This document shows positions 1,542-44,245 of a DNA stretch of 64,000 bases, one piece after another (the first letter of the stretch is position 1; every line of letters starts with the position of its first letter). Position numbers and translations under genes: made by a program. The stretch is from Pagrus major (Eukaryota; Chordata; Actinopteri; Spariformes; Sparidae): assembly GCF_040436345.1 (NCBI RefSeq), contig NC_133221.1, forward strand, positions 24,019,165 through 24,083,164, given 5' to 3'. The notes below the pieces were generated by a model. That model was not told the DNA's origin. It worked only from the letters and a program-made list of their open reading frames with translations, and did not search any database.

Positions 1542-1983
1542 TGTGACAAAGTGAAATGAGCATTCAGCAACATCTGTGGCATTGTGTCGTGTGATAAAAC
1601 GGCACAATTTGGAGTGGCCTTTCATTGTGCCCACTCCACGGCACACCTGCGCAACAATCGTGCACTTTAATCAGCATCTTAATATGAAACACCTGCCAGG
1701 TGGATTGATTATCTTGGCAAAGGAGAAGTGCTCACTCACGGCTTCTAACAAATGTGTGCACGAAATTTGAGAGAAATAAGCCTCATGTGTTCACCGAAAA
1801 ACATAGGCGAAAAATGGGAGCAAAAACAAAACAATGCTGTTTTGTTCAGTGTATGTATATTTCACACAGTGCATAGCTACACGGGTCCTGTGAAATAATG
1901 GCCACAAATCATAGGCTACAAATGTCTCTTTCTGTTTCTTGAATGAAAGCTACAAAAAATAAAGACATTAAACCTACATCTCC
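1542..1983. other. Intergenic flank of the large transposon
   Basis: No gene is supported here. An open frame at 1576-1770 begins in weak context and lacks codon bias or family resemblance. Confidence 0.5.
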
Positions 1984-2022
1984 CCCATATGGAAAAGATA
2001 TAGATAAATCTTATAAAATTTG
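1984..2022 (+). repeat. Left terminal inverted repeat of the 9.57-kb transposon
   Basis: It begins CCCATATGGAAAAG and matches the reverse complement of 11515-11553. The ATATGGAAAA core is probably part of the transposase binding site; that is inference. Confidence 0.8.
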
Positions 2023-2599
2023 TATCTCCTTTGTCTGAAACTTGTGTGTAAAGCATACAACAGTGAAACCAGATATAAGATCCTTAGTAAATTTGAACAA
2101 AATTAAACTTGTATGATTTGGGTATTTATCAGAACAATATATGACAGTGATGTTGCATACAATATCCTTAGTAGGAAAATGTAATATCAAACCTATATAA
2201 GTTGGGCAATCATCAATGAAACTAAACTGTTGTAAATATTATAGAAAATACTTACAAATTTTACTTGTGTTGCCACAAATCTGAGACGTTTAAATAAACA
2301 ACATGATTTGACAATGAAATTACAGGGAAACGCATGATTGACTAAAAGCAGGTTTTCAACTCATAATGACAATGACTATTTTCTTTTTTTTTTTGCTAAT
2401 ATTGTGTAACATTTTATGAGCAATCATATCCAATAATATTCATCCCATTCTTCTTGTAGAAATATTTTTAATTTTGCACAAGATCAGCAGATTACATTAA
2501 ATCAGTACAGTACAGTAGTAATTGTATGGACAAATATTTCATTTTCTGCTCAGAAACCCAAAATCAGTAACTCCATCTTCACATTTAGTTGACACTCAA

Positions 2600-5500
2600 T
2601 CATTTACAGTAATACGTATTCAGTAACCGACAAACAATTGAGTTGGACTGTGGACACTGTATGTACATACATGGTCTAACTATCAGAGTGGCATTTATGG
2701 CTTTGTGGAGGCCTGTGGGAAAGTGGACAGTTGACATGTAGCTCAGTTGAGTTCTGATTAGAGAACCTCTGGCCAACTTCTGCACTGTACAATTGCCATA
2801 TTTTCCTATGGCATATAAACATTGATCACCCATGTCAATAAAGTGTGAGACTGTAAAAATACTTCCATCCTTCAAAAGCACAACAGAGTTGTTTCTCTGT
2901 TTTGTTTTGCTGTAGGTATGACCATGAACAACAACACCATTTACAGCAATTCTCTTGTAGTAACTCGCCACAGAGTGTGTGGGAACTTCTCTCACTGTGT
3001 GGAGAGCAGCTTGGTCACCAAGAGATATTAATCTCACATTTGGTGGCCCAAGGGCAGTCACCTCAGTAAACTTTTTATACTTCTTGGTATGCTGGTTTCC
3101 CTGTCTCATTTCATTGCAGAAATCTTTAACTTCTGCTGGTGCATTTGTCAAGAATTGCTTTGCTAAACGGGGGAAAGCACGGGATAATGCCACTTGTTTG
3201 CATATTTGTTGTGGAACAGCTTGACTACTTTTTACTTGTTTCAGGAGGTACCCGTTGAAATCTTCAAACATGAAGGCTGAGTGAGCCCACAGAGGACCCC
3301 AGTGTACAACGCTTTTACTTAAATGCAGTAGTGAATGAACATTAAATGTCATGTGCTCTTTCCCATACAGTGACTGCACACCTCCAACAAAGTACACCAA
3401 TGCGTCATGTGCGTGATTTATCAGCTCAGCATTTAATTCAGACCCCAACAGAATGCTTATGCCCTCTATCAGTAATGCCCAATGAGAGTGATACCTCTGT
3501 GGAAGTATGCCTTTCAGAACTGGCAAGCTGTAGTACAAAAGCCAGTGCTGCCACTCATGGGCTTTCCAAAATCTGCGTTCTGTTAGAGATCTTGGAACAC
3601 GAGCAACAATACTTGGAGGTTTAATAGACAAGAGGTGTCTGTCCATGATGGCTGTTTGTGTACCAATATACCATGGCTCAGAACTGCTTTTAGAATCCAT
3701 CCATAAATTTGCCATGTATCTGCACACACCAAGCAGCACACAGTGCATGTAGTCAGGGACCATCCCATTGATTAGATCAAACAATGGTAAATCTGCAAGA
3801 GCAGATGAGCCCTTTATGCCCAATATAGTCTTCCCTTCTCTTTCAGCTATTTGTCCTATTTCTAATGTGGTTTTATGATTTCTGTCACTTGGCTTTTCAT
3901 CTGGACATGTGTAAACCCTTGTGTTTCCTTTTCCTTTCCTTGTTTGCATCCCAGGGTGAAGGCAGACTCCACAGCCATACTCACCATTAAACTGCTTAAA
4001 ATTCTGCAGTAATGGCCTTGCTACTGCATCACGCACACAGCACAACGTGTGCACTTTTATGTGTCTCAATGACTGATCACTAGGATGCTGCCACTCAAAA
4101 CCAGCTTGAGAAAGACTGGCACATTCCTCAACAAATGGTTTAAAGAAGCAAGACATATCTGGCTTCTTGGCTCCAAACCACAAAGCACATAAAAGTATAT
4201 GTTTATCTCTACTCTCAGGTGGTATCTCATTAACACAACATAATATTGGCCAAATACTAAATTTGGAGGACTGAAAAACTGGTACACCATCACAATTGAA
4301 TGTGAGGGACAGAAAATCCTCTTTACTGTTATTTTTCAAGGTCTGATATAAGGTGCCATCACATATGTCCTTTATTACATGCTCTGTACTGGCATCAGCA
4401 CAAAAACATAGATCCTGCATATCCTGGTGCTCAAGAATATCTTTCAGTTGATCCTTTAATGGTATGCTAATAAAGAAATGCCCTTCCTGTAAACTGGCTT
4501 TCACTGTTGTGAATGAGGAACATGACACACATTTGAGTGTTTCTTCCATAGATTGTGAAGAACCAATGTACTTAGTACAAACTCCACAGTAATGGTGTCG
4601 TTTTAACTGATGTGTAATATCAGCTAATGGTTTCTCCAGAAAATACTTGCTTGTTGGAACAGCACTAGTCCGAGCAGAATGCAATTTGAGCAGTTTCAGC
4701 AGGTCTTCCATTAATACACCTGTTGTGTTGTGCCTCAGTGCAAAGGAGAGAATCGAGATGATGCTTTGCTCTTCCGTTAGTCCATGGGAGGAGTGGACAT
4801 CATCTACCTCTTGAGGGACATTGTCCTAAATGATAGAAAAAGAAGCACTGCAATGAAACTGATCAGGTTTCACTTGTTTTACTCATAACCTTGTTTTGGC
4901 AGACTGCACTTAGCATGGAAAATAAACAGAAGCTACAACACATGAGAAAGAAAAAAGAAGCTGATGGATGGAAAGTGTACACGTCAATGAACTGCAGAAT
5001 ATGTTACAGTTAGTCAAATGGCAAATGAATCTAATGTTAAAAAAAATTTAATCAAACTCACATGTGAATGCTTAAGTTTTGTCTCACCTGCACCATTGTG
5101 AAAGATTCTGCTCTCTGTTCTTGACTTTGGCTTCCATCTTCATTGTTTTCCTGAAAAAGACAGTAATAAACAACTCAGTAAAGTGAAAGAGAGGGATAGC
5201 GGTGGAGCAGATTATATGACACTGTAGTTTTGTCACCTGTGGCACAGTGAGAGGTTCTGCTCTCTCCTCTTCTCTCTGGCCATCATCTTCATCACTTTCC
5301 TAAGAATGACACAAAGAAACAACAGAGATAATAATTGTAATTTGACTGTAAGAGTAAGCAACAGAGGTAGGATGGTCTAATATTGTAGTTTTGTCACCTG
5401 TGGCACAGTGAGAGGTTCTGCTCTCTCTTCTTCTCTCTGGCCATCATCTTCATCACTTTCCTAAGAATGACACAAAGAAACAACAGAGATAATAATTGTA

Positions 5501-7025
5501 ATTTGACTGTAAGAGTAAGCAACAGAGGTAGAGTGGTCTAATATTGTAGTTTTGTCACCTGTGGCACAGTGAGAGGTTCTGCTCTCTCCTCTTCTCTCTG
5601 GCCATCATCTTCATCACTTTCCTAAGAATGACACAAAGAAAGTCTAATATTGTAGTTTTGTCTCACCTGGGTGGCATCTTCACTTTCCTGAGAGGAACAC
5701 AAGTCCATCATTTATTGTATAAATAAAATAATTAGAGATGGGACTGAACTGATTTAACAGTGACCTAATTCATGGAATGGATATTGGACTGATGGCACCA
5801 AGCCACTATGGGCGGCTGAAGAGAAGCCAAGCTCATGTGAAGACATCTGTGAACTGTACATCTCTCTCTACTACACTGTGATGTAGCAGTGTAGGGGAGA
5901 CTCGGTGCACACAGAACAACATAAGAATGAAGGAACGACTGTAACTTATAGTCTGGTCGCTTATATGCAGATTTTAAAAGCCAGGAGAAAAAAGGTTACA
6001 TAAATTAATATGTAATCATACACATAACACCAACAACAACAGTAAAGTTGATGTTAATAACAATATTATTCAAGATAAAAAGAGTGCTAATGTCAGAATC
6101 AGATCTGAACCGAAACACGTGGATTGGTGCATCTCTAAAAAGAATGATGGAGGGACATAGAGAATGGCAGTAGTTTGACTGTGTGAGAGAGGGGAGGCTG
6201 TATAATAATTCTGTATTTTTTTCTCACCTGGTGTGGTACTGTGAGAGGTCCTGGTCTCTGCTCTTCTCTCTGGGTATTATCTTCATCACTTTCCTTAAAA
6301 TGGTATATCAAGAACTTGTTTGAGACATATTTTCACAAAGCTCCCAATACAGTTTTTCTCCCTTTCCATATTGTTGACTAGTTGTTTTTGAACTTCACAA
6401 TAACATAGTGTTTTGTTTATAAGTTAAAAACAGTTCATTTTCTTCTTCTAGTAAACAGTTTACATTTACTTAAGTAAAATCTTGGATAACTTGTACTGCA
6501 GAAATATTATTTAGCGATTTCCAACAACAAATGCACATTATTCAACATTTATGTGGCAAACAAAATGGATTATGTTAAATATATAGCCTACCACTGTAAT
6601 TTGTGCCCATCAAAACATAATTGATTATCCATAAGTGTACAAAGTTTCATACTTTTCATGCTTTTGTAATCAAATTAACACTTAAGCTCACATTTGGTAC
6701 ACATAACTTGACTCGAGATTCAATTATTATAGTGCGGTGGGCAGCTCACTTTACATTGGCTGATAAAACAGAGAGGACAATAAATAAATTGCACTTAACA
6801 TGTTGTTGCGTCGTGTGCTTCCCGCTGTCACTCAAAGCTCTGTTGATTTTCCTAATGAAACAACAGACAGTAACTAGTAACGATAAATGTAACGTCAACA
6901 TCACTTGTGAGCTGCAGGGAGCGCGCATACCTTTTTTTCCATCTTGTCAAAGTCCGTGTAGGAACGTTTCTCCGCAGCCAGTCTCTTTCTGTTGTGTCAG
7001 GTGTCACGACTTTTCTTTTCGGCAT
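2600..7025 (-). CDS. CACTA/EnSpm-type transposase, 9 exons, about 903 aa
   Basis: I assembled nine exons whose phases all agree: 7025-6931, 6851-6800, 6293-6228, 5687-5667, 5621-5559, 5460-5398, 5299-5237, 5150-5088 and 4825-2600. The predicted protein starts MPKRKVVTP and has a basic N-terminus. Next comes an acidic tail of exon-encoded repeats (residues about 50-165). A zinc-binding pair CGVC and CVSC follows (242-264), then the transposase core. Typical Tnp2-like blocks are the DGVPVFQSS...WPI segment (acidic residue about 341), VPDYMHCVLLGV (Asp about 520) and the NVHSLLHL...GPLW...FE region near 650. The family cuts and pastes DNA using acidic catalytic residues. No stop or frameshift interrupts the model, so it may be functional. 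The terminal repeats around it argue against a domesticated host gene. The 52-nt second exon is my weakest call, but it restores phase exactly. Confidence 0.8.
5088..5621 (-). repeat. Tandemly duplicated 63-nt exons in the transposase gene
   Basis: Three units, each one 63-nt exon plus about 98 nt of intron, recur at an exact 161-bp period (exon starts 5299, 5460, 5621) and are nearly identical. Each exon is phase 0 at both ends and codes 21 residues beginning ESDEDDGQREEERAEP. A diverged fourth copy is at 5088-5150 and a 66-nt relative at 6228-6293. Because each unit is symmetric, copies can be gained, lost or skipped without breaking the frame. Confidence 0.85.
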
Positions 7026-7403
7026 GTTTGTAACATTACAGGAGCCGGTTTGACAGTCTGTTTACCATGCTGTGGAAAGCCAAGTCATGCCCGCCAAAAA
7101 ATAACCAACAAAAAAAGGCAATGCCCGCTACAAACCATTTTACCCAGGAAGTTAAAAGTTTGTTTTTAGCCCTGAGATCGTTGATTTGCTAGGAGTAGGT
7201 AAAATATCAGGATACGCCAATCAAAGGGAGCGTAGGGCGGGTCATCATGCCCATCATCCCACAGGTTGCCTGGCAGCGATCAACGCGAGACCTTGGCACG
7301 GTCACGCGAGGGTGGTTCATTTTGAACACACGGCGGCGGCAGGTCTGACGTTCGGTTGACGGTTGATGCTCTCTCTCGGCATATCATCGCCCATTCGGAT
7401 ACA
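7026..7403. promoter_or_regulatory. Divergent promoter region between transposase and BEN gene
   Basis: The two start codons lie 378 bp apart in opposite orientation. The interval is GC-richer than its surroundings, with a GGGCGGG box near 7234 and several CpGs between 7270 and 7360. There is no clear TATA box. A shared bidirectional promoter is the simplest reading; transcription starts were not determined. Confidence 0.55.
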
Positions 7404-10400
7404 ATGGAGACAAATGAACCTCCCGTTAGTGGTAAGTAAAATTACGTATCTGAAGGAGTTGGTTTACATCAGATTTTCGGTTTATGTAGCATTGCTAAAA
7501 GTGATAGTTAGCTTAATGCTAAAGGGTAACGTTAACGTTACACATTAAAACAAGTGAGAAATGTGGTTGTTCTCAGTTTTTTTTAACAGATAGCCTGTAA
7601 AATTGATTTTTTTTTTTAAAAAAGAAGATAAAATGTATGTCTATTGGTCATATTGTTCGGCTTAGAAATAATAGATTATTTTTTTCACTTCAGAACACAA
7701 GGACAGGAAATTTGCAGTGGTGCAGTGGAGTGAAGGGGAGGATTCCGGGAAGCTCAGTGAAGTAAAGATTGGCAATATACGCGGGTATGATGATTCCAAG
7801 ATGGACCAGCATGGGAATCCCATTTCCACCTACTCAGCCTTCATCGAATGGCGCCATGGGAAGAAGCAGCGTGGAGGGTGGCCCCACTACCGGGCCACTG
7901 TTATTTTTGTCAGTGGTAAGTTAATGTTGCTATGGTTCAAAGTGAAGATTGTCCTTTCTACATAACTTGAAAATAGGTGACTAAAGTTAGACAGGGAAAA
8001 TTTTTACCTGTCTGAATTTGTGTGCTTACTTTACTTGCCAGGTGGGTAAATGCTTTCCAACAAAAGTTTTGCAGGATACATGATGATTACAGTATTATTG
8101 GTGGGAAAGTCATGTCAAATGAGCCCTATTTAAATAAGCCAACTCTTGATTTAAAATGTTATGCATATTATTTACAACAGTTTTGTCACCATTTTATCAT
8201 GTGTTAGTTACTGCTCTACAAAATGCTTATCTACACAACTTCCCTCCTCTCTAAGTGAATGCATTAACGACACTATAACACAGTAATCTCATGATGTTAA
8301 TGTCTATAGCAGTGGTTCCTACTTTTAAGTATCCCTAACCTGACACAAATTGGAACACAAACCCCTGTCTGATAGATTTTTTTTAATAGCTGTTTTAGTA
8401 CATAAAGTTTATTAAACATTAACCAAAGTTTCATATGGATTGGAAATACATGTTGTAAAATATTAATTATTAGCATTTTTTGCAAAGCCCACTGTGTGAA
8501 CAACAGCTCTACACAACACATACTATGATACTGACAATGTCATAACATAACATGATACAAAAACTGCTCTTGAGTATTAAGCAGTTTGTCATTAAATGTG
8601 TTTGTTTGTATTCTTTCTTCATTTGTTCTCTAGTTACTCGTTATGAGGCAACCCGTAAACTTAATGCACTGCTGAAGGAAAATGAACCTGCAGAGCTGAC
8701 CAAGAGGGTATCAGTCCGTCCTCAAAAATATCAGGAAGATTCAGATGACTCAGATCCAGATGAGACTCAGATTTTGACTCAGCCATTGCAAGTCAAGGTG
8801 ACTATTTGCTTTTAACTATTTTGAGGTTTCCATATTTTTCGGTTGTATCATGTAAATAGAATGTCAGATCTTTTTTTTCTTTCTCTCTCTCCCTCTCTCT
8901 CTGTATACCCAAAAGTCAAAGGCTCTCACAAGGAAAGACCCTGCAGAGGAATTCCTTGCAATGTACAGCGATTCACCACCTTCAGTCATTCATCTTGATA
9001 AAAATCCGACAAAGACAACGGCTGAATTAAAGCGGGAGATCAAAGATCTGAAAGAAGAGAATGCTAATTTGAGGGAGTTGCTTGTCCAAGGTATCACTTC
9101 TTATCACTTATTTAACAATTAGACAACCAAAACACTTTAAAACACTTTAGCCATACTTTATATTGTACTAAAGAATGATGTACCGTTTTTGTTTGTCATC
9201 TTCTGTGTATAGATGTGCCTGAACTCCTAAAGACCATGAAGAATGTCATTGATTTGGCTGAAACTCCTAAGAGATCCAGTTTGGAGCTGACCTCACCACC
9301 ACTGCCCCCCCAAAATTCTCTGCAGTCCAGGCCCGGTTCATCATCTGCAGATTCACTGCTGTCCCTCCCCAGATCTTCAGCATCCAGCTCCACATCAGAG
9401 TCTGTTATTCCATCAACAAGGGACTGCCAGTCGTCCAAGGTAATTGATTTTTAAAGAATAAATAAATCTAGTGCATAAATTGGATCTACTGCCTCTTAGA
9501 TGTACATGTATGAGTATGGAAGATCTAATTTTTGTTTTAATGTCTTAAGTCTCTAGGGGTGAGCACATTATATTTAAACCCTAAATATTCACAATGTCTC
9601 CTTGTTTAAACAGGTGGAGATCCATCCTGGGACTGGAGTTATGGTAGAGAAACTGGCGTGGGCCTATGCAGTTAATGCAAATTCGGCTACAGTATTTGTG
9701 AGGCATCTGCTCACAGCAGTCTTCCCAATGGAGATACTGCTGGTGAGCAATCTTCGAGGGGGGAAACGAGGCAGAGGAGATGCTCGTCTACCTCTGGACA
9801 AAACTAAACTGGATGCCATCTACAGTAAGTTTTCAACCTTTTATGGTATGTGTTTTGGCAATAGTCCATGCTTTTTTTTTTTTAACTGATACAGTTACTG
9901 TTACTTCATACACCATACCAGCATTCTACAGTGTCAGACTTTAGTGTCAGTTGTGTTAAATTCTATGACACACATGGAGAACATACAGTATCTACCCAAC
10001 ATTTCTACATTGTATAAGTGTTAATGAAACAATGCCTTTGCCAAATGGAAGAACCTAATTCATAGAATACTGTCTGATCTTCCCTTGCTTATACTGTATT
10101 ATATACACAGGTGTAATATTGGTCTACTCATGACATGCTATTGTAAGCTACCTCGTTCTCTCCTGTTTCAAGTGCCTCTGAATTATTTTTTGTCCAACAT
10201 CAAATAAACAAATGATTACATTTAGGAAAATAAGTATATTTTAGTCTGAAGTATAATCTTGCATTTGATAGAGGCATCTCTTCATCAGAGGTTATACATT
10301 GTGATGTATTTCCTTTTAGTTAACTTCTCTATGCATCTCCAATACAGTGCAATAAAGCTAGCACCATTAGACATTATATTATGTAATGATTTTTTTTGGG

Positions 10401-10584
10401 TTACTTTCAGATTAATAATTGTATTGTTATTTGTTTCCATATTCCCCTATTGTGTTCATATATAGGTGCAACGCTTGAGAGGTGGCCTGGGACCCAGCCC
10501 TCCAGCATAGGCAGCACAATCAATGCCAAGATCACAGAGCTCCGTGCCAAAAGTAAAATTGTTTCTGTTACAACAACCCCTTAA
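7404..10584 (+). CDS. BEN-domain protein carried by the transposon, 7 exons, 381 aa
   Basis: Exons are 7404-7431, 7694-7915, 8634-8797, 8916-9090, 9213-9439, 9614-9824 and 10466-10584; they join in frame to 381 residues. The start is METNEPPVS. Residues about 11-75 (FAVVQWSEGEDSG...) look like the small beta-rich N-terminal module seen in other fish transposon-linked proteins. A charged helix, probably coiled coil, lies near 175-196. A Ser/Pro-rich linker follows. The C-terminus (273-381) is a BEN domain: HPGTGVMVEKLAWA, then AVFPMEILLVSNLRG, then a basic segment and INAKITELRAKSK. BEN domains bind DNA and join chromatin-regulating complexes. Lying inside the same terminal repeats as the transposase, it may bind element ends or control transposition. 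That role is inference; the domain call is by remembered family pattern. Confidence 0.75.
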
Positions 10585-10758
10585 AACAGTGTTTACCACA
10601 CAACGAACATGATCTACCTGGTAGTTACTGTTACTGTTACAGTGTCACATTTGTAGCCAGGTTTTACCTGTTAGAGGGAAATTGTTTTAAGTGGGCAGGT
10701 TTTTATCCCTCCCTAGTTTTGCCCATGTTGATGTTCATTGTAATATCAGTTCACTGCT

Positions 10759-10764
10759 AATAAA
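10759..10764 (+). terminator. Polyadenylation signal AATAAA of BEN gene
   Basis: A canonical AATAAA lies 175 bp after the BEN-gene stop codon and inside the transposon, so the whole transcription unit fits within the element. Confidence 0.65.
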
Positions 10765-11514
10765 GTCCATCAAATTAAAAGTTTGCCTAACAGACATTTT
10801 TTCAGCATTACAGATATTGAAATATTGCATTTATAGACTGCAGTCATGTAGCTGGGATGGTAGAAAGTAGTATTTCAGTAGTAAAGGCAAAAATTAAGTT
10901 TCGTCACTTTCATATGTGAGTCACGTGTTTCTTATGATAGAAATTTATATGACGTTGCATGAAATAATTCATAAAAAAGTATGTAATTTTTATAATCATA
11001 TTGCAAATTTCATAGGCTGACATTTAAGAATTCTTATACAAAAAACATGAAGAAAACATAGTTTACCATGGCATTACATTCCCATAACATACAAAAAATC
11101 TATATGTAATGGTATATATTCCTATATCTTTTTATACAGATTTTTATTATATGCCATTTAATAAACTTATATAAAACATATAAAGACAGCATAATTCACC
11201 TGCAAAAAATATTCACTTTTCATAAAGAAAACTTACATATAGTGGTATTTATTCATATATGTAAAGTATATGTCTTTAAACAGACATAGTAAAAAAAACT
11301 GCAAAAATTATATGAAATGTGTATGGAAAACATACGTTGACATGTGCTTTCCTTATTTTCTACATATATAGTTTTCACATGATTGTTATATAATTCTTTT
11401 TATTATCTTGTATGAAAATAATGCAAAAGTGGCCACTTTCAGGAGTAAATCATATACTATACATGAAACATACAATACATGAAACATAAACTGAAGGCGG
11501 TGGAAAGTTATAGG

Positions 11515-11553
11515 TTTTTTTTATAAGTTTCTTCTATTTCTTTTCCGTATGGG
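11515..11553 (-). repeat. Right terminal inverted repeat of the 9.57-kb transposon
   Basis: Read inward from 11553 it begins CCCATACGGAAAAG. Just inside, ATACATGAAACATA is directly repeated (about 11457-11488), as expected of subterminal transposase-binding repeats. Confidence 0.8.
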
Positions 11554-13466
11554 CCCGCTCATTGTTAAAGTCTCTCGGGCTGGTATCCATTGATAAGCAC
11601 TCCCTAACGTCAGCACAACAGAAATGTGCTGAAATCAGATTAAATTAATGAAAGTGTGTCACCATTTTCCCTGTAATGAGGCACATTAACAGAATTATAC
11701 CAAATATAAAACTAATTAAAGACAATTACCATGTGCACCTCTCGGACCACGTGTAGAATAACCTTAATTTGGTGCCGGATGTTGGCTTTGACCCATAATG
11801 CCCTTAACTAAACTCTGCCCCTGCATTAAAATAAGAGCTTACATAATATCTTAAACAAACATCTTTTTAAGATTGTGCTTTTCAGACACCTTTTCCAACA
11901 ATACTCCATAATTAACACCTTATTTTATTACTTTTTAATCACTTTTTAATGGCTTTATGAACTCAAATACTCTACTCCAGGGTTAGACCAATGTAAATAG
12001 ATCAAAACTCATATCTGTGAGACACAAGCAATGCAACAAAGGGAAACTTCAATCACGCTTCTGAAGCCCAAGCTTACTCCTGAGACTATGGTGCCATCCT
12101 GTGGCAGAAGTATGGCAGCATATTGTAGAAGATCCAGACAACATAAATGTTCACTTTAAAACTACATTATTGGTAGTTTATATAATTACAATAAACTTTT
12201 GCCAATATGTTATTCAATTATTATTACACACAAGCAACTAAGATCCCTGTTAAGACTGCAAGCATGGAAGTTCATCAGAGCTGACTGGGACATGCTGATG
12301 AAACACAAGAAAATGCAAATACTGTGCAGAGAAACTATTGAGCATAAATGATTAGTTGGAAAAATAAGTAGGAACATACTGAATGACTTCCCTATTACAA
12401 GCAAGTCCTGCAATAAAAGTGAATAAGTCATATTTTTTGTTATAATTGATGGAGATGGAGACAATATATTCCACATACACAGTACTCCTATTAAAAATAC
12501 ATTTCATCCAGAGTAAGGCAGCACAGAAACAGTTCCAAACAAATCAGGAAATAAGGATACGGAAAAAGAATGGAAAACAGATACTTCTTTAATTGGAAAA
12601 ATAATCGTATTTTATTACCAGGCTTTTGTGAGAACTTGATTCTAATCGGTCAATAACACCTTTCTACTGTGTTATTTCTGAATAGCAGACCCCTGCTGTG
12701 TACGTTGTTCTGATAATTGATTCTGGAGGACTTAGTGGAAGCAATGAAATCATTTCAAATAAAAAAAAAACAAGGTTCTAAATCAATATTTTGTCAAATT
12801 ATTGTTTTTAGCAAGTAGCTGTGTATTAAGTGAAATAATGTACAGTGAGGGGGGAAGGTGGTTGTAGACCTCATGCATCAATCTGTTGGGGTTTATTTTG
12901 CCATAATTACCTGCTCACTGTACGTTATCTCTTACTTGTAGCTGTTCTGGAGCTTTCAATCGTTTGACCATCTTTAATTCTATGACAACCGGCTAAACTC
13001 CATCTGAAGATCATGTGATATGATCAAAAGCTTCAGAACGGTTACAAAACCAACCTTGTTTTGCTGCACGAGCAGATAAAAGATCCAAATGAATTTACAT
13101 ACAGTGGTAATGATGTGGACAAGGATGTTCTTAAAGAGACAGGATACTGTCGAAAAAACTGTTGCGGATGAAAAAGCACAGAGATAACTATAGCCATATA
13201 CTGTAGTTGGCACTGGAAGGAAAAATAAGTGTAGTTCGTAAAGCAGATATACGTCATACTACATTGTACAAGTGGAGAATATGTTCCCTCCAGTCAAAAT
13301 CTTGTATTTCTTATATTCCTACAGTGAATGTTGGAGCTTCACTCTGTACTGTGTCTGTGCTGAGTTTGAAACCATAAACCTAATAAATCTGTTTGAAACT
13401 AAAAGGCAGTTTTCATTTGTTTCTCCTTTTTTTTTTTTTTTACAATGTTTTAATAAACTAAAGCAT
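11554..13466. other. Intergenic between transposon and dnajc16
   Basis: The stretch is AT-rich. Small open frames near 12210-12476 and 12980-13257 lack splice logic or recognisable domains. A plus-strand AATAAA near 13382 has no gene that I can attach to it. Confidence 0.45.
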
Positions 13467-23910: not shown

Positions 23911-24673
23911 GTTGGCCAAATAATTCACCAGAAAATCTCATTTAATCAAAATTCAAACAATGGAAACCTGATCTGTCCTACACATCTGTGAGTGGCTGAG
24001 GATTTGTTAGGGTTAGAGTTCGGTCAGGTGTTTACTAAAGTCTACTAAAAATAACTCACCAAAAGCCACATAAATAAATTCTGGTTCTTTATTCATTTCT
24101 GGGTGATCATTATTTTGTATTCTCTTCTTCCTTCTTTTCCTCCTCATTGTGATCTTTGATGGTCTTTTTGACATCTTACTCTTCGTTCTGTGTTTGTTTG
24201 CTGCAGTGGTTTTGTTTCTTTCCTGAATAGAAAAATCCATATTGTTTATACTCTTTCTGCTCAACAAACTCAATGAAGCTTTTGAGGATTTTGCATCCAT
24301 GTCTGGTCCAATCAGGTTAAACCTTGATCCTCGGGATCTGTCTTTCCAAACTATTGCAACTATTGCAAACACCCACCCCCAGACAGGTCTTGCACTTGAC
24401 TCTCTTTACTGGCAGCATTTCTCTGTTTCTCTTTAATAAACTTTAATGCGTAACATGGGCTGAAAACAACTCAAACCATTCACCTGCCATACGTTTTGTA
24501 ACTCAAGATAAGATTATTGATCCCTCGTACAGGAAATTCAAGTTGACACAACAGCACAAAGGAACAAACAGTGTGCAAGCAATAACAAAAGGTAGCAGGG
24601 CAAGTGTAGGAATATACTCTGAGAAAAACAAAATAGAACTAAATAAGAATAAAAATATAATTCCTGAGATATA

Positions 24674-26306
24674 CAGTGGGTACGGAAAGTATTCAGACCC
24701 CTTTAAATTTTTCACTCTTTGTTTCATTGCAGCCATTTGCTAAAATAAAAAAAGTTCATTTTATTTCTCATTAATGTACACTCAGCACCCCATCTTGACA
24801 GAAAAAAACAGAAATGTAGAAATTTTTGCAAATTTATTAAAAAAGAAAAACTGAAATATCACATGGTCATAAGTATTCAGACCCTTTGCTGTGACACTCA
24901 TATTTAACTCACATGCTGTCCATTTCTTCTGATCCTCCTTGAGATGGTTCTACTCCTTCATTGGAGTCCAGCTGTGTTTAATTAAACTAATTGGACTTGA
25001 TTAGGAAAGGCACACACCTGTCTATATAAGACCTTACAGCTCACAGTGCATGTCAGAGCAAATGAGAATCATGAGGTTGAAGGAACTGCCCAAGGAGCTC
25101 AGAGACAGAATTGTGGCAAGGCACAGATCTGGCCAAGGTTACAAAAGAATTTCTGCAGCACTCAAGGTTCATAAGAGCACAGTGGCCTCCATAATCCTTA
25201 AATGGAAGAAGTTTGGGACGACCAGAACTCTTCCTAGACCTGGCCGTCCAGCCAAACTGAGCAATCGTGGGAGAAGAGCCTTGGTGAGAGAGGTAAAGAA
25301 GAACCCAAAGATCACTGTGGCTGAGCTCCAGAGATGCAGTAGGGAGATGGGAGAAAGTTCCACAAAGTCAACTATCACTGCAGCCCTCCACCAGTCGGGG
25401 CTTTATGGCAGAGTGGCCCAACGGAAACCTCTCCTCAGTGCAAGACATATGAAAGCCCGCATAGAGTTTGCCAAAAAACACATGAAGGACTCCCAGACTA
25501 TGAGAAATAAGATTCTCTGGTCTGATGAGAGGAAGATTGAACTTTTTGGCGTTAATTCTAAGCGGTATGTGTGGAGAAAACCAGGCACTGCTCATCACCT
25601 GCCCAATACAATCCCAACAGTGAAACATGGTGGTGGCAGCATCATGCTATGGGGGTGTTTTTCAGCTACAGGGACAGGACGACTGGTTGCAATTGAAGGA
25701 AAGATGAATGCGGCCAAGTACAGAGATATCCTGGAAGAAAACCTCTTCCAGAGTGCTCAGGACCTCAGACTGGGCCGAAGGTTCACCTTCCAACAAGACA
25801 ATGACCCTAAGCACACAGCTAAAATAACAAAGGAGTGGCTTCGGAACAACACTGTGACCATTCTTGACTGGCCCAGCCAGAGCCCTGACCTAAACCCAAT
25901 TGAGCATCTCTGGAGAGACCTGAAAATTGCTGTCCACCAACGTTCACCATCCAACCTGACGGAACTGGAGAGGATCTGCAAGGAAGAATGGCAGAGGATC
26001 CCCAAATCCAGGTGTGAAAAACTTGTTGCATCATTCCCAAGAAGACTCATGGCTGTACTAGCTCAAAGGGGTGCTTCTACTCAATACTGAGCAAAGGGTC
26101 TGAATACTTATGACCATGTGATATTTCAGTTTTTCTTTTTTAATAAATTTGCAAAAATTTCTACATTTCTGTTTTTTTCTGTCAAGATGGGGTGCTGAGT
26201 GTACATTAATGAGAAATAAAATGAACTTTTTTGATTTTAGCAAATGGCTGCAATGAAACAAAGAGTTAAAAATTTAAAGGGGTCTGAATACTTTCCGTAC
26301 CCACTG
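24674..26306. mobile_element. Tc1-like transposon, 1633 bp, apparently intact
   Basis: Inverted repeats of 216 bp (24674-24889 and 26091-26306) differ by very few bases. They begin CAGTGGGTACGGAAAGTATT and are flanked by the TA target duplication (24672-24673, 26307-26308). Each repeat contains two direct copies of AAGTATTCAGACCC, one near the tip and one near its inner edge, the IR/DR arrangement known from Sleeping Beauty-type elements. The transposase frame is full length. Confidence 0.95.
25050..26090 (+). CDS. Tc1/mariner transposase, 346 aa
   Basis: A single uninterrupted frame starts with ATG (MSEQMRIMRLKEL). It has two N-terminal helix-turn-helix (paired-like) DNA-binding segments, with RISAALKVHKSTVASIILKW in the first. 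Then comes a basic PRPGRPAKL link of the GRPR type. The DDE domain has LWSDERKIELFG, FQQDNDPKHTA and WPSQSPDLNPIEHLW; exactly 34 residues separate the second Asp from the Glu, the DD34E signature. The enzyme cuts the element out and reinserts it at TA. Usual length is about 340 residues, so nothing is missing. Confidence 0.95.
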   Translation: MSEQMRIMRLKELPKELRDRIVARHRSGQGYKRISAALKVHKSTVASIILKWKKFGTTRTLPRPGRPAKLSNRGRRALVREVKKNPKITVAELQRCSREMGESSTKSTITAALHQSGLYGRVAQRKPLLSARHMKARIEFAKKHMKDSQTMRNKILWSDERKIELFGVNSKRYVWRKPGTAHHLPNTIPTVKHGGGSIMLWGCFSATGTGRLVAIEGKMNAAKYRDILEENLFQSAQDLRLGRRFTFQQDNDPKHTAKITKEWLRNNTVTILDWPSQSPDLNPIEHLWRDLKIAVHQRSPSNLTELERICKEEWQRIPKSRCEKLVASFPRRLMAVLAQRGASTQY

Positions 26307-26781
26307 TACATACAGTGTACACCCTTATACAGACTGTTTGTGTACATGTGCAATATCTGTCATTAACTATAAGTGGTGTATGATATGAGTCTTGGTGGAT
26401 TAGGAGGCACTGTGTGCTGCAGTGTTGTGCAGTCTGATGACTGATGGTATGAAGGAGCCCCCTGAGCGCGCTTTGAGACACGCGGCTGGGCGAGTCTGTG
26501 GCTGAACAGTTCTCAGTTCAAGCATTCAGCTTTCCTCTCATCGTCTTCTCAGTCACTGCCGCCACATTGTCCAGTTCCATCCCCACCGCAGAGCTGGCCT
26601 TTCTGACAAGCTTATTCAGTTTGGTTACGTCGCACCTGCTGATGCCACCCCTCTGGGATCCAGCTCTCTCAAAATCAAGCAAACAGGCCATACTCTATAC
26701 ATGTATACATCCATCTGTATCCATGTAGTTGTCCTGAGTACAGTAACTGTTCACGAACGAAACCGATAGCTTCCTGAAAAT

Positions 26782-33303: not shown

Positions 33304-36300
33304 ATGCTCCGCTTCAGACTCAGCACCACACTGTGTGAGTACACAACTAACTGACTAATAGAGCAGTATTTTAAATGAGTTAGTTGTTTTTTAAAAGTAT
33401 TTTCAAAGAAAGATGTTAATATATAACTATGACTGGAATTTCAGGATGCTGGTTGGAGTCATCATTGACACTGTGTGTGCACCATGGATGTATTTAATAA
33501 TACAGCACCAAATATCAAAAAATTAACACTATTGTTCTGATAGTTCTTATGAGGGGGCAGATATCTTAAAAATGGCAAATATCATCCTATAACATCCTTG
33601 TCTGTCTTATCATTATAGTTGACCCAACACATATTTTGCAATTCGATGATTTTAATCTTAGCAATGCATGTACAATTCTCGGGCACATAAAGAGAGCACA
33701 AGGAGTACTCTTTGACGTTATGTAAACCTTGTCAAATTATGTATTTTCCCTTTTTTGTCAAAGAACAGCTTGCTTACAATCATGTTTTTTTTTTCTTTCC
33801 AATTACCTGCCAATTCCCTGCCAGTAAAATACTTTGCCAAGCAAAGTCTTTTACAGTTTGACACATTACAGCTCCAAAATTTCTATGATTGCATTTCTAA
33901 CTGTCTAAATGTCTAATATCACAGCCCACCTCCTCTAGCCTTATTAGTCAGGAAATTTGAAGAAATACATCTGATGAGCTTTTGGATGTGTTGAGAGACA
34001 TATACTTAATATAGACTTACTAGAATCTTCCCATTGGTTTAAGCTGTTTGTGACCAATGTAAATCAGGTGACAGGACCCTGATTCATCTTTTATTGCAGT
34101 TTTCCCCTAAAGTTCAAATACTATGAGTGTAAATACTAAATTTTTGGGGGTATAATCACTGGGAGAAAATTGTTCCAGATGTTGCAGTTGCTGTTTTGGG
34201 TTACTCTGACAGCTCCCCTAAACTGCCATTATAGATCCAGATAAGATATGTGGCTTTTATATCTTAACATAGAAGCTTCAAAATCATGTTGATGGTACAG
34301 TGTCTTGTAACAGGATGAATGGTGTCTCTGTCTCAGCCACTCCGCCCCTATCACTTATTTCTGCATTACATAACTTCAATGAGAGGGTAGGATCACAGCA
34401 TTACATACATGTTTACTTCAAGATAAAAGTTTTTAACACATAACATTGTTATGACGCAATGAGTTTTGTTTGTAGTTAGCACCTACATAATGTCTGACAA
34501 ATTGTTAGAGACCTGGAATTTGTGGTGATGCACTCAGAAGCTGGGGGGGGGGGGGCAATTCGCACAAACTGTCGATTTCTACATACTGTATGTAGCTTTA
34601 TTGTTTGTATAGCTGAAAGGGTTTTTTGAGGGAATGAAAATCTGCCTCCCCTCCTTGTTTTAACCAGCTTTATTTAGAGATCAAGTACTCCTCGTCTCAT
34701 TTATATTGTAAAATGATGATATCATAAAGAAAATTGACTGGGTTGCAGCAAAGTACTGTAGGATGACTTATGTGCCTCTTGTAAGTACAATTAACTGATC
34801 ATATTTTAAGTGTATACCACATTTACTATTGTTTTATGATATTTATACTTGAACACATATTCAAACCTTTTTGAATAAAGTTGTGTTCTGCGATAAAGCA
34901 GAATACCATAAAGATCCTTCAAGGTTTAAAGCAAGACTTTTTAAACTTTTGCTTGTGTTTGGCTGATGCAGTTTGACATGTTTCTTTTCCAGTGCTGGCA
35001 GCAACATGTTCACTCTTCATGACAGCAGGTAAATGTCTGAGAGCATATAAGAGAGCACTCGTGTTTATTTTCTGCATACAGTTTACGGTTTGAACACACT
35101 TCAACTTACATTTTCGTATCTGTCATTTTAGTTGTTTCCACAGAGAGAGCTATCACCTGTGCTGACAGCTTCAACGTCCATCGCCTGAGCTGTGGTATGA
35201 CTGAGCTCTCCACGTCTTTGTGTCCACGTTAAGTCTGATGGCCTTAATAAACTGACTCTACCGGTGCTGACACATTTTGCACGACATTTGGGGAACTACA
35301 CATTCAAATTTTGTCTGGATTGGAGTGGCCAGTGATAAGTTGTGTAAAGCCAACATCCTGCAGGCTTTCACTGCTATCAGTCACATCAGAGGGTAACATC
35401 ACTGATAAGTTCATCTGTGCTACTTACAGGATTCCTGGTGAGGGGTTGGAGTCTTTGTTTGGGATGAAAACCTGCAAATATTTGGCTCAACATTGGTTGA
35501 CAAGCCCTTGGTTTAAACCAGTCCTGCCCAAAGTAGGGTCTGAGGCCAAAAGTTGGTGCAAAACAATAGGTGTTTGCTTTTGGCCTGTGGTCCATCATGA
35601 AGTTTCAGTTTTCAGTTCAGGCACCCTGGTTTAAACATTCTGGCCTTTAAAAAACAGAAAAGACACTGGCAGGGAGCTCCCCATTCCCATTGTCCTGCAA
35701 CCACAAATATATAACCTCAAATATTCTACATTTACAGGTTTTTTTGAAAGTTTCAGATGTAAGTATACAGGATGTACTATACAGTATCATCCTGAGCCAG
35801 AGACTGTGGAAATACAAAGATAACAACATATTATTCCATATAAACAAATATAATGAAGGGATCTAAAAGGAAGCTTTCCAGCTGCTCTTGTTTCTGAATT
35901 CCTCCCTTGGTGCGTCACAGATATCGGAGTGATCATTGTGGAGGCAGCACTGTATGGACGTGCAGACAATGAGACCTGCAGTGCAGGCAGACCTCCACAA
36001 CAACTTGCCAATACAGACTGCTACCAGGAGGGCACAGTCGACATCCTGAAGAGAAGGTACACCATAAATGGAATAATAGAATAAAAATATACCATTTTAA
36101 CTTAAGTGCTACTGCTGGCAATGGCAACTTAACATTGCACCTGACTTACATTTGCCACAAAAGAAAGTGCGGTGATGACATAGTGCAGTCTGCTACAGTA
36201 TTTTATTTGCACCATTCTGGTTTTAGTGGGCTTTATTGGGCTAAAACATGCTCTTGTTCTCTTTCCCACAGGTGTGATGGCAAGAAGGTGTGTGAGCTAA

Positions 36301-38001
36301 ACATAAATTCTGTCCAAGCCTCTGATCCCTGCAACGGCATCTACAAATACCTGGAAACCAACTACACCTGCTTCCCAGCAAGTCAGTCACATATCTGTGT
36401 CAAACTACCAGTGAAGAAAAGCTGCATGTTTTATAGTTTATCTAAAGCGATTCATTCATATTACTTTGACAGTTCACTTTGCTACATGTGAGCACTCTTT
36501 GGCACACCTGCAATGTGGTAAGATTACAATTTTTGTTTTTTGCATTTATGGAAGATTCATTTGATCAATGAAACATAACATTTTACTAGGTGCTCGTTTA
36601 TTTGCCTGCTTCTTGACTACCTTTACATCCTCCCTGCCTTGCCAATTCTTCCTCCTCTTTCTATCAGATGAAGGGCAGGTTATATTTGTCTACGGCGCTG
36701 ACTATGGCCGTCGTGACATGACCACATGCTCCTACAAGCGGCCTGCCTCTCAGATTGCGAATGTCCACTGCACACGCCACACCAGCAGAGTTGCTGACAG
36801 GTACGGCTGCACGCTCTTTGTTACATTTAAGAAATAAATCAAGAGGCAATTTCATATTAGCACAGGTAGACAGGTGAGTTGGAATTCTTGCAAGGCTCCC
36901 TGAGACAATTAAGAAGAAAGTAACACAGATATGAAAATGTAAATCGCTACCATCTTTCACCTTCTTCAAAAAACATATGTCACTTGTGTCCACAGCTGTA
37001 ATGGCAAAAACAGCTGTACTGTCAGAGTGAGCAATTCACTGTTTGGTGATCCCTGTGGCGGCACTTACAAGTACCTGGAGGTGGCTTACATATGTGAATG
37101 TAAGTATCTTAAGCCATTGTGTGGTGTCCATATGGGGAAGTGAGATGATGTGGAGATATTTCCACTTCACATTGCAAGCACACTGCTGGTAAAACAGCAA
37201 CTCCAATCAAAAAGAGAAACATTTTACAGTGATAATTAAAAAAGATATCTATCATCACGAATACATATAGCTCCTCTCAGCTGTAGTGCAATGTATGCAG
37301 CAAGATTGTTTTGGTTTGAGTTGCAGAGTTTTGGAGATATCTTTTGTTGAGATGTCTGCCAACGCTTGAATATAACTCAATTCACTTGGCTAAAAGATAC
37401 ATTTGAAAAACTCAACAGCAATGTCTCCGACAGTAAATCATGACACAGTTAGTCAAGATAATCCACAGCCCGTGTTGGGAGCAGCTTAATGTAGGAACCA
37501 TTTTATTTTTGCCATATCACTACGCAGAAGTAATCTGCTCATGGACAAGAGGCTTGTGTTTGTGACCGAACAGGATGTAAAAATGAATTACCTGCCTTGG
37601 CTGAACACAGTAGATGCACGCTTCCTTCTTGCGCAATGATAAGATTGGCAGGTGTACTTCGGTAGAAAGACAATAGTTCCTACATACAACTGCCAACAAC
37701 AAGGTCTGTGGATTATCTTGAGTAACCGGTTCATGATTTCTGGAAAGAGACATTGCTGTTGGGAGTGCCATCTAATTCCATTATATTCAAGAGAGGACAG
37801 ACATATTTACTGCTGATATCTCCAAAAATGAGCTAATCAAAACAATGTAGATGGATAAATAGCACTACAGGAGAGAAGAGAAGAGGAAAAAAATATGTGT
37901 TTTTGATTTAGGGGTGAACTCTCCCTTTAGATTATTTGTTTGAATTGAATTTTTTCTGTTCTTTTGCAGATCCTGTGGTCATTCCAAATCAGTCTGTGTG
38001 A
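33304..38001 (+). CDS. L-rhamnose-binding lectin 2 (two SUEL domains), 9 exons, 229 aa
   Basis: Exons are 33304-33334, 34993-35028, 35132-35194, 35921-36056, 36272-36381, 36473-36517, 36668-36800, 36996-37099 and 37970-38001, with the same phases as lectin 1. A signal peptide ([19 protein letters not shown]) precedes two SUEL-type domains. Both keep the sugar-contact motifs: ALYGRADN and [10 protein letters not shown] in domain 1, ADYGRRDM and [10 protein letters not shown] in domain 2. The peptide [10 protein letters not shown] linking into domain 2 is identical to lectin 1. The tail is [15 protein letters not shown] follows at 38028-38033. Same exon count, order and strand show a tandem gene duplication. 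Confidence 0.92.
34543..34555 (+). repeat. G13 homopolymer in lectin 2 intron 1
   Basis: Thirteen consecutive G bases. The run is prone to length error in sequencing and replication. Confidence 0.8.
37271..37880. mobile_element. Foldback MITE in lectin 2 last intron, about 610 bp
   Basis: The two halves are inverted copies around about 37580. Matched blocks include CTGTAGTGCAAT against CTGTAGTGCTAT, TTTTGGAGATATC on both sides, CTTGAATATAA, CAACAGCAATGTCTC, and TCAAGATAATCCACAG. Each pair lies at mirrored distance. Nothing codes inside. RNA from this intron could fold into a long hairpin. Confidence 0.8.
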
Positions 38002-38804: not shown

Positions 38805-43601
<4,797 letters not shown>

Positions 43602-44245
43602 GCTGCGAGACACAAGTTAACAAGACAGCCAAGACAATGAAATGCACGACATCCGTTTTAATTTTTCAAAATAAATGATGTCCGGGGCGTACATATTTGA
43701 GCATGATTAAAAAAAAAAAAAGAACACATGCCTGACTCAATAAACAATTATAAAAACACAATTATAAAAATTTATATGGATGACTACTATTTTAAAACCT
43801 AAATCATTACATAATCATGAGTTGTCATTATGAGACCTGTGCATCTGAGCATTAATTTGTGGCATATTTTTTTAATCTTTGGGAGAATCATTTTGCGAAT
43901 ACCCTGTAGATTCACTGCAATACTGCAAGAGCAAATAATTTTGTAGTTATCGCTACATGCGATACCTTTATTTTGGAGCCGAATATTTTACTTCCGGCTC
44001 AGCTCCGCCCGAGCACCAGGAAGTTGTGAGAAAACGCTGACTAAAATGTATTTTGGGTGTCTAACGATATGCAAATTGTCTTGATGTGTAGTTAAAAACA
44101 TAAAACGACCATATATGTCAAGGTTGGTTTTAAAAAAAATGAGAGTTGATGTCAAAATCGACTTGAACGCAAATTAAACTGCTTCGACCACAATCCATTG
44201 CGCATGTCCGTGCTGGTAGTTGTCAGCGGTGGTTATGGAGATGAG
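43602..44245. promoter_or_regulatory. Bidirectional promoter region, lrrc47/cep104
   Basis: The lrrc47 start and the first cep104-side exon are about 0.65 kb apart and divergent. The interval holds an ETS-type ACTTCCGG at 43990-43997, a CTCCGCCC box just after, and an NRF1-like TGCGCATG near 44200. This mix is typical of shared housekeeping promoters without TATA. Confidence 0.6.

Follow-up and report, generated by a model that had tools for sequence, protein, structure and literature searches.

A CACTA-related (TRC-type) transposon of the fish Pagrus major carries a divergent BEN-domain gene beside its Tnp2-type transposase gene

A 64,000-nucleotide stretch of the genome of Pagrus major (C7:24019165-24083164; hereafter the window) contains at positions 1984-11553 a transposon of 9,570 bp, in which two intact and divergent genes, one for a Tnp2-type transposase and one for a BEN-domain protein, lie wholly inside the ends. 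Its sequence features assign the element to the TRC ("Transposon Related to CACTA") type, which is CACTA-related (CMC) and distinct from classical CACTA. Our overall reading, to which we give a probability of about 65%, is that of an autonomous, recently mobile TRC transposon whose BEN protein is the likely second trans-acting, TnpA-like protein. Among fish genomes the searches covered that of Pagrus major (785.9 Mb, 25 contigs), and splice sites in the gene models were inferred from the sequence, without RNA.

Ends, copies and mobility

The element ends (CCCATAYGGAAAAG) match each other in inverted orientation at 30 of 36 bp, compared with a best random match of 24 to the left 36-bp end in 20 simulated 64-kb sequences, and a motif search reads both tips as CCCATAYGG. 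The tip motif CCCATAYGGAAAAGA has two zero-mismatch matches in the window, both of them element ends, and allowing up to three mismatches adds three matches, the number predicted by chance. An earlier note, made from the letters of this DNA, had proposed inverted ends 9.57 kb apart around two divergent, unbroken multi-exon genes; the ends hold up, being unique in the window, and so do the genes, for which the exon models (Table 1) return the same lengths of 903 and 381 amino acids with no internal stops.

The first 217 bp are found at 100% identity in at least three places, namely the window, C21 and a second C7 site. The C21 copy comprises the full 9,570 bp at 99.3-99.4% identity in different flanks and is interrupted within transposase exon 2 by a 6,705-bp insert (C21:6363040-6369744), which has an A-rich tail, is bordered by a short direct repeat and is probably a retroelement of the non-LTR (long terminal repeat) type. 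The second C7 copy consists of blocks that are approximately 94-97% identical, is missing the greater part of the main transposase exon, and is right-truncated, halting at element position 8901; its BEN exons are present with small insertions and deletions. The left flanks of the three copies are unlike, and the common sequence opens precisely at CCC.

The C21 junctions read CAACTG/CCCATATGG...CCGTATGGG/TGTACA (slashes mark the element borders), that is, with a TG target duplication. Joined with one TG, the C21 flanks form a continuous exon-like frame, and joined with two TG the frame is broken. Beyond the flanks themselves, the joined flanks, used as a genome query, recovered C3:19966430-19966568 and C17:1920015-1920109, at 75-76% across the junction; both sites have a single TG, and the one-TG join outscores the two-TG join at each (111 vs 104 and 78 vs 71, respectively). 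They are paralogous empty sites of the C21 insertion, and because they carry a single TG, they fix the element ends and the 2-bp target duplication; the CC/CC flanks of the window copy are weak evidence for a duplication when taken alone. The reading of these tips as transposon ends in the earlier note is thus borne out by two more places with the left end at 100%, one of them a full-length copy in another flank, and by two empty sites, and the ends are not single-copy sequence. The element is a DNA transposon of the cut-and-paste kind that moved recently and, as far as autonomy can be read from sequence, an autonomous one. A host gene pair, with a domesticated transposase beside a BEN gene and with ends that are relics or arose by chance, would also account for two intact genes, but we give it almost no weight in view of the 99.3% identical second copy in another flank, the 2-bp duplications and the two empty paralogous sites.

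Table 1. Features of the transposon, in window coordinates
Feature	Position	Strand	Basis or remark
Left target-site duplication, CC, 2 bp	1982..1983		Equals 11554-11555; weak taken alone
Left terminal inverted repeat, starting CCCATATGGAAAAGA	1984..2019	+	30/36 vs inverted right end; homology to C21 and second C7 copies starts at the same base
Zero-mismatch tip match CCCATATGGAAAAGA	1984-1998	+	Motif search
Zero-mismatch tip match CCCATACGGAAAAGA	11539-11553	-	Motif search
Tnp2-type transposase gene, 9 exons, 903 amino acids	2600..7025	-	Exon model and Pfam Transposase_21
Transposase exons	6931-7025, 6800-6851, 6228-6293, 5667-5687, 5559-5621, 5398-5460, 5237-5299, 5088-5150, 2600-4825	-	Exon model
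161-bp tandem repeat, 2.6 copies, triplicating a 63-bp acidic transposase exon	5223..5641	-	
Intergenic gap between the two start codons, 378 bp, CpG-rich, candidate bidirectional promoter	7026..7403		
BEN-domain gene, 7 exons, 381 amino acids	7404..10584	+	Exon model; BEN match at residues 300-365
BEN gene exons	7404-7431, 7694-7915, 8634-8797, 8916-9090, 9213-9439, 9614-9824, 10466-10584	+	Exon model
Palindrome AAAGTGGCCACTTT, candidate binding site (hypothesis)	11426..11439		Inside a well-kept block common to sister right ends
Right terminal inverted repeat, terminating TCTTTTCCGTATGGG	11518..11553	-	30/36 vs left end; C21 copy shares the last base, then TG
Right target-site duplication, CC	11554..11555		Sequence

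Transposase and class assignment

The last (main) transposase exon matches Pfam Transposase_21 (PF02992; E=2.6e-10, 40.3 bits, cut-off 28.6). Motif I (a hydrophobic pattern, DG, F/Y, WP) is present as LSLTFNCDGVPVFQSSKFSIWPI at 334 and occurs in 0 of 20,000 shuffles of the protein. DYMHCVLLG at 520 supplies the box A core (D-x-[LM]-H-x3-L-G), which 23 of 20,000 shuffles contain; in the full box A ([LVI]-D-x-[LM]-H-x3-L-G) a P precedes the D where L, V or I is specified. D341, D428, the CxxC at 447-450 (C447/C450), the HxxxH at 659-663, and E683 fit D-D-C(2)C-H(3-4)H-E, the arrangement published for the CMC group (PMC12730594). Of six paralogs taken from this genome, five share the aligned motifs, a near-identical pair among them, and L033, a partial frame, lacks both D. 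By this alignment D341, D428, E683 and the accompanying residues are putative catalytic residues. The three acidic exons from the 161-bp repeat encode the same 21 residues, exon 2 has the unusual donor GTTAAG, and a transposase relative on C4 has a long acidic repeat ahead of its core in an open frame.

TRC elements were described in 2006 by DeMarco et al. from a fluke, insects and other animals (SmTRC1 of Schistosoma and elements of Tribolium and Aedes), with the traits of Transposase_21, motif I, box A, terminal repeats starting with CCC, 2-bp duplications and a size of 4.5 to 9.2 kb (PMC1636069). The window element has Transposase_21, motif I, CCC ends, a 2-bp duplication and a box A one residue off, and the ends, the duplication and the Tnp2 motifs together assign it to TRC. 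It differs from the 2006 elements in its gene arrangement, as the sections of that paper on these elements speak of one unit whose products arise by alternative splicing and do not describe a BEN gene (PMC1636069). A Danio rerio sequence is listed there in the TRC group, but the authors were unable to define terminal repeats for members other than those of Schistosoma, Aedes and Tribolium, hence not for the fish (PMC1636069).

Classical CACTA, or En/Spm, was rejected because the ends are CCC and not CACTA and the duplication is 2 bp and not 3 bp (3-bp duplications being given for En/Spm in PMC12730594). What remains of the earlier designation as a CACTA-like Tnp2 element is a complete, two-gene, mobile element with real ends; the CCC ends and the 2-bp duplication (TG on C21, CC in the window) move it to the TRC branch. 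En/Spm of plants likewise combines a Tnp2-type transposase with a second DNA-binding protein, TNPA, and TNPA and TNPD are both essential there (PMC1636069), but both are spliced from one unit whereas the fish element has two divergent genes. The wider CMC/CMCT group includes EnSpm, Mirage, Chapaev, Transib and Plavaka, and its duplications of 2 to 5 bp cover the 2 bp found here, whereas its termini are mostly CA..TG in contrast to CCC (PMC12730594). Transposase searches of viral contigs, bacterial and archaeal genome contigs, phages and plasmids returned no matches, nor did searches of viral contigs with the BEN protein and the tip motif.

BEN gene and its pairing with the transposase

The second protein matches Pfam BEN (PF10523) with E=1.4e-4 and 22.5 bits, slightly under the curated cut-off of 23.2, and the homologous BEN core of the C4 element reaches 38.7 bits, over that cut-off. 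The BEN domain of the window gene is interrupted by an intron. Compared with solved structures, the BEN core gave no match at E up to 1, and the whole protein gave seven weak matches, the best of them to PI3-kinase (E 0.09) outside the BEN domain, which were judged to be chance. The domain DUF4806 has been termed a BEN subtype in zebrafish (PMC11075544).

BEN is in the same place in all three copies of this family, and it recurs beside transposases that are only about 34-44% identical to that of the window (C4/C13, C14 and C6), lying upstream, divergent and within 13 kb. The C4 and window transposases share approximately 34% identity over 859 aligned positions (BLAST) and 44% in the core. Upstream of the C4 transposase, an exon pair on the opposite strand is the source of the 38.7-bit Pfam BEN match; its core aligns to that of the window with a score of 105 vs a maximum of 52 in 5,000 shuffles, and the intron in its BEN domain has the same position and phase as in the window gene. 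On C13, a near-identical relative of C4, BEN is at 12.5 kb. Among 6,309 six-frame segments from the fetched loci, a profile built on the BEN cores of the window and C4 located a BEN core 7.9 kb upstream of the C14 transposase on the other strand (two exons, E=4.5e-14 and 1.5e-8), and on C6 the last BEN exon, the only one matched, is 8.1 kb from the transposase.

In the genome-wide transposase search 60 of 168 candidates were scored, so the locus list is a lower bound; 61 matches were grouped into 46 loci (52 entries, two merging two rows each), seven of the rows, all within or beside listed loci, being omitted. BEN matches were grouped into 35 loci, with the weakest counted rows at E up to 0.09. 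At least 17 of the 46 Tnp2 loci have a divergent BEN within 50 kb; seven of these pairs are within 13 kb (window, C21, second C7, C4, C13, C14 and C6) and ten at 32-43 kb. A BEN in any orientation stands within 50 kb of 18 transposase loci; it lies upstream and divergent at 17 of them, and at the remaining one it is that of the C6 pair. The rough chance expectation of a BEN neighbour is 0.0003 per locus within 15 kb. Recurrence in diverged elements indicates that the BEN protein has travelled long with this transposase lineage. Long-term constraint is read from the open frames and from the similarity across families, not from substitutions between the window and C21.

Several observations weigh against our overall reading. 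The window and C21 BEN exons differ by seven single bases with no insertion, deletion or stop, and six of these are nonsynonymous and one synonymous; the transposases differ by nine nonsynonymous and two synonymous changes. These differences give no sign of purifying selection, as is usual for copies after insertion. Between the BEN genes of the window and C4, the first exons show no significant similarity (2,018 of 5,000 shuffles equal or better), and a CACTA-style subterminal repeat array, searched for as exact 8-10-mers, was not above shuffled sequence; classical CACTA elements have arrays of short subterminal repeats. Among the matches listed, a divergent BEN within 50 kb is missing at 29 of 46 Tnp2 loci, and a divergent Tnp2 within the same distance at 18 of 35 BEN loci. 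The Tnp2 loci without BEN include long frames (C14:4.31M, C6:36.59M, C4:0.33M and C5:35.9M) and five sister-family fragments. A C23 transposase with an open frame of 725 amino acids had no BEN in approximately 13 kb upstream nor nearby in the genome-wide searches; a degenerate C1 transposase copy had none in 7 kb, and none was detected with many more distant transposases. In an unrooted tree of six transposases C23 joins the window branch, apart from C4/C13/C6 and C14, which makes loss or divergence of BEN on C23 the simpler reading. The earlier expectation that BEN and transposase are always adjacent therefore survives as a recurrent divergent pairing beside related transposases, and the unpaired loci speak against "always". 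Missing pairs may be partly due to decay and detection limits; BEN may be a feature of part of TRC diversity, or it may be too diverged or decayed to detect in the rest.

Conserved placement also bears on whether the BEN gene is simply a passenger that the element picked up from its host. Such capture is seen in many transposons, and this genome has host-like BEN matches elsewhere; host BEN proteins (the BEND family) share the BEN domain and occur without a transposase. A genome search with Pfam BEN gave seven matches at five places. One of these, on C5, is a 743-amino-acid frame with three BEN matches and no listed transposase nearby; it looks like an ordinary host gene, presumably BEND3-like. 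Another, C14:797956, matches the transposon-type BEN as well, though weakly. We nevertheless hold a passenger origin to be improbable, as several diverged families have BEN in this divergent position, the C4 BEN intron keeps its position and phase, and the frames of both window genes and of the C21 exons are open. Two BEN stretches 21 kb apart on C15 (C15:31003637-31003894 and C15:31024973-31025233) are open, 43% identical to the window BEN protein and without a listed transposase match nearby; they are decayed elements or domesticated genes.

Possible roles of the BEN protein

In the reading we prefer, the Tnp2 transposase, a DDE-type enzyme, would cut at the CCC ends and make the 2-bp target duplications, a chemistry taken from knowledge of the family. 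The BEN gene would be read the opposite way from the CpG-rich gap between the start codons, and its product would be the second trans-acting protein of the element, like TnpA of maize En/Spm; BEN is not known as a TNPA domain. Sequence-specific DNA binding is suggested by the domain; the protein may bind subterminal sites, the ends or the central promoter, and thereby help assemble the transposition complex, keep the element promoter active, or both. One candidate binding site is the palindrome AAAGTGGCCACTTT, found in 10 of 10 fetched sister-family right-end loci (L010-L019); palindromes of at least 14 bp appeared in 86 of 500 simulated stretches, so it is a lead only.

A rather less likely alternative, though one we take seriously, is that BEN is dispensable for cutting and joining and acts like host BEN proteins, as a chromatin or silencing-escape factor that opens the central promoter or insulates the element. 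The observed/expected CpG ratio is 0.94 in the gap vs 0.18 in the main transposase exon and 0.37 in the window, as though the gap had escaped methylation; this suits, indirectly, a shared promoter that is unmethylated in the germ line while the element body is methylated. Fungal transposons offer a parallel, as they repeatedly carry TET/JBP genes that are said to aid escape from silencing, again a second gene whose product targets DNA or chromatin, but one that encodes a dioxygenase and not a DNA-binding domain, and in other hosts (PMC12730594). The conserved pairing also fits a role in transposition.

Still more speculatively, BEN-TRC elements could form a long-lived lineage in which BEN is an end-binding or anti-silencing partner of Tnp2, and from which some animal BEN chromatin proteins descend (or the reverse). 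A precedent for such descent is RAG1, which comes from a related transposase. Shared descent of transposons and host BEN chromatin proteins becomes testable with these elements, as does the question of whether vertebrate Tnp2 transposases, like maize En/Spm, depend on a DNA-binding partner. The window copy, whose frames are both intact and which has a near-identical sister, is a natural start for an excision assay. It also adds a fish element with securely placed ends to the TRC group, for which the 2006 authors could define them in a fluke, a mosquito and a beetle only (PMC1636069), and a BEN-domain gene emerges as a second gene that recurs within an animal lineage of transposons. A search of titles and abstracts in the open-access literature found no BEN gene within a transposase-bearing element; Repbase was outside its scope, and a consensus may exist there.

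A sister-family relic in an amplified unit

The ten transposase fragments (residues 1-112) that lie 32-43 kb from BEN exons are parts of one amplified unit, of which nine copies are 97.9-99.97% identical to the tenth, with several near contig ends. Ten right-end loci are 71-77% identical to the right end of the window element, and at all ten near-identical sequence runs on past the TRC tip; the reading of these multi-chromosome relatives as giant TRC elements was therefore set aside. The unit leaves the first half of the BEN core unmatched, and its transposase fragment contains a stop. The unit is thus a larger repeat, probably spread by other means, that encloses what is left of a related BEN-TRC element, and it still has the transposase-BEN pair in divergent orientation. 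Terminal repeats of the C4 family were looked for and not found. The unit is present on many chromosomes (loci L010-L019, L032, L034-L047 and the BEN loci), and a related frame of 99-114 amino acids stands beside the transposase relic (L032 at 2338, + strand; L038, listed at 2257, - strand).

Other features of the window

An Rfam scan of the window at gathering thresholds and a tRNA scan returned no matches. A Tc1/Sleeping Beauty-type transposon at 24669-26311 has 222-bp inverted repeats that are 99% complementary and an uninterrupted frame of 361 amino acids with HTH_SB, HTH_Tnp_Tc3_2 and DDE_3, and looks young. A SUEL (rhamnose-binding) lectin match at 35973-36491 scores 29.8 bits (cut-off 31.4) and lies in an apparent tandem duplication (repeats 28362/35918, 29989/36454 and 30591/36985). 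A leucine-rich-repeat host gene, which we take to be LRRC47, is located at 41792-43616 on the minus strand.

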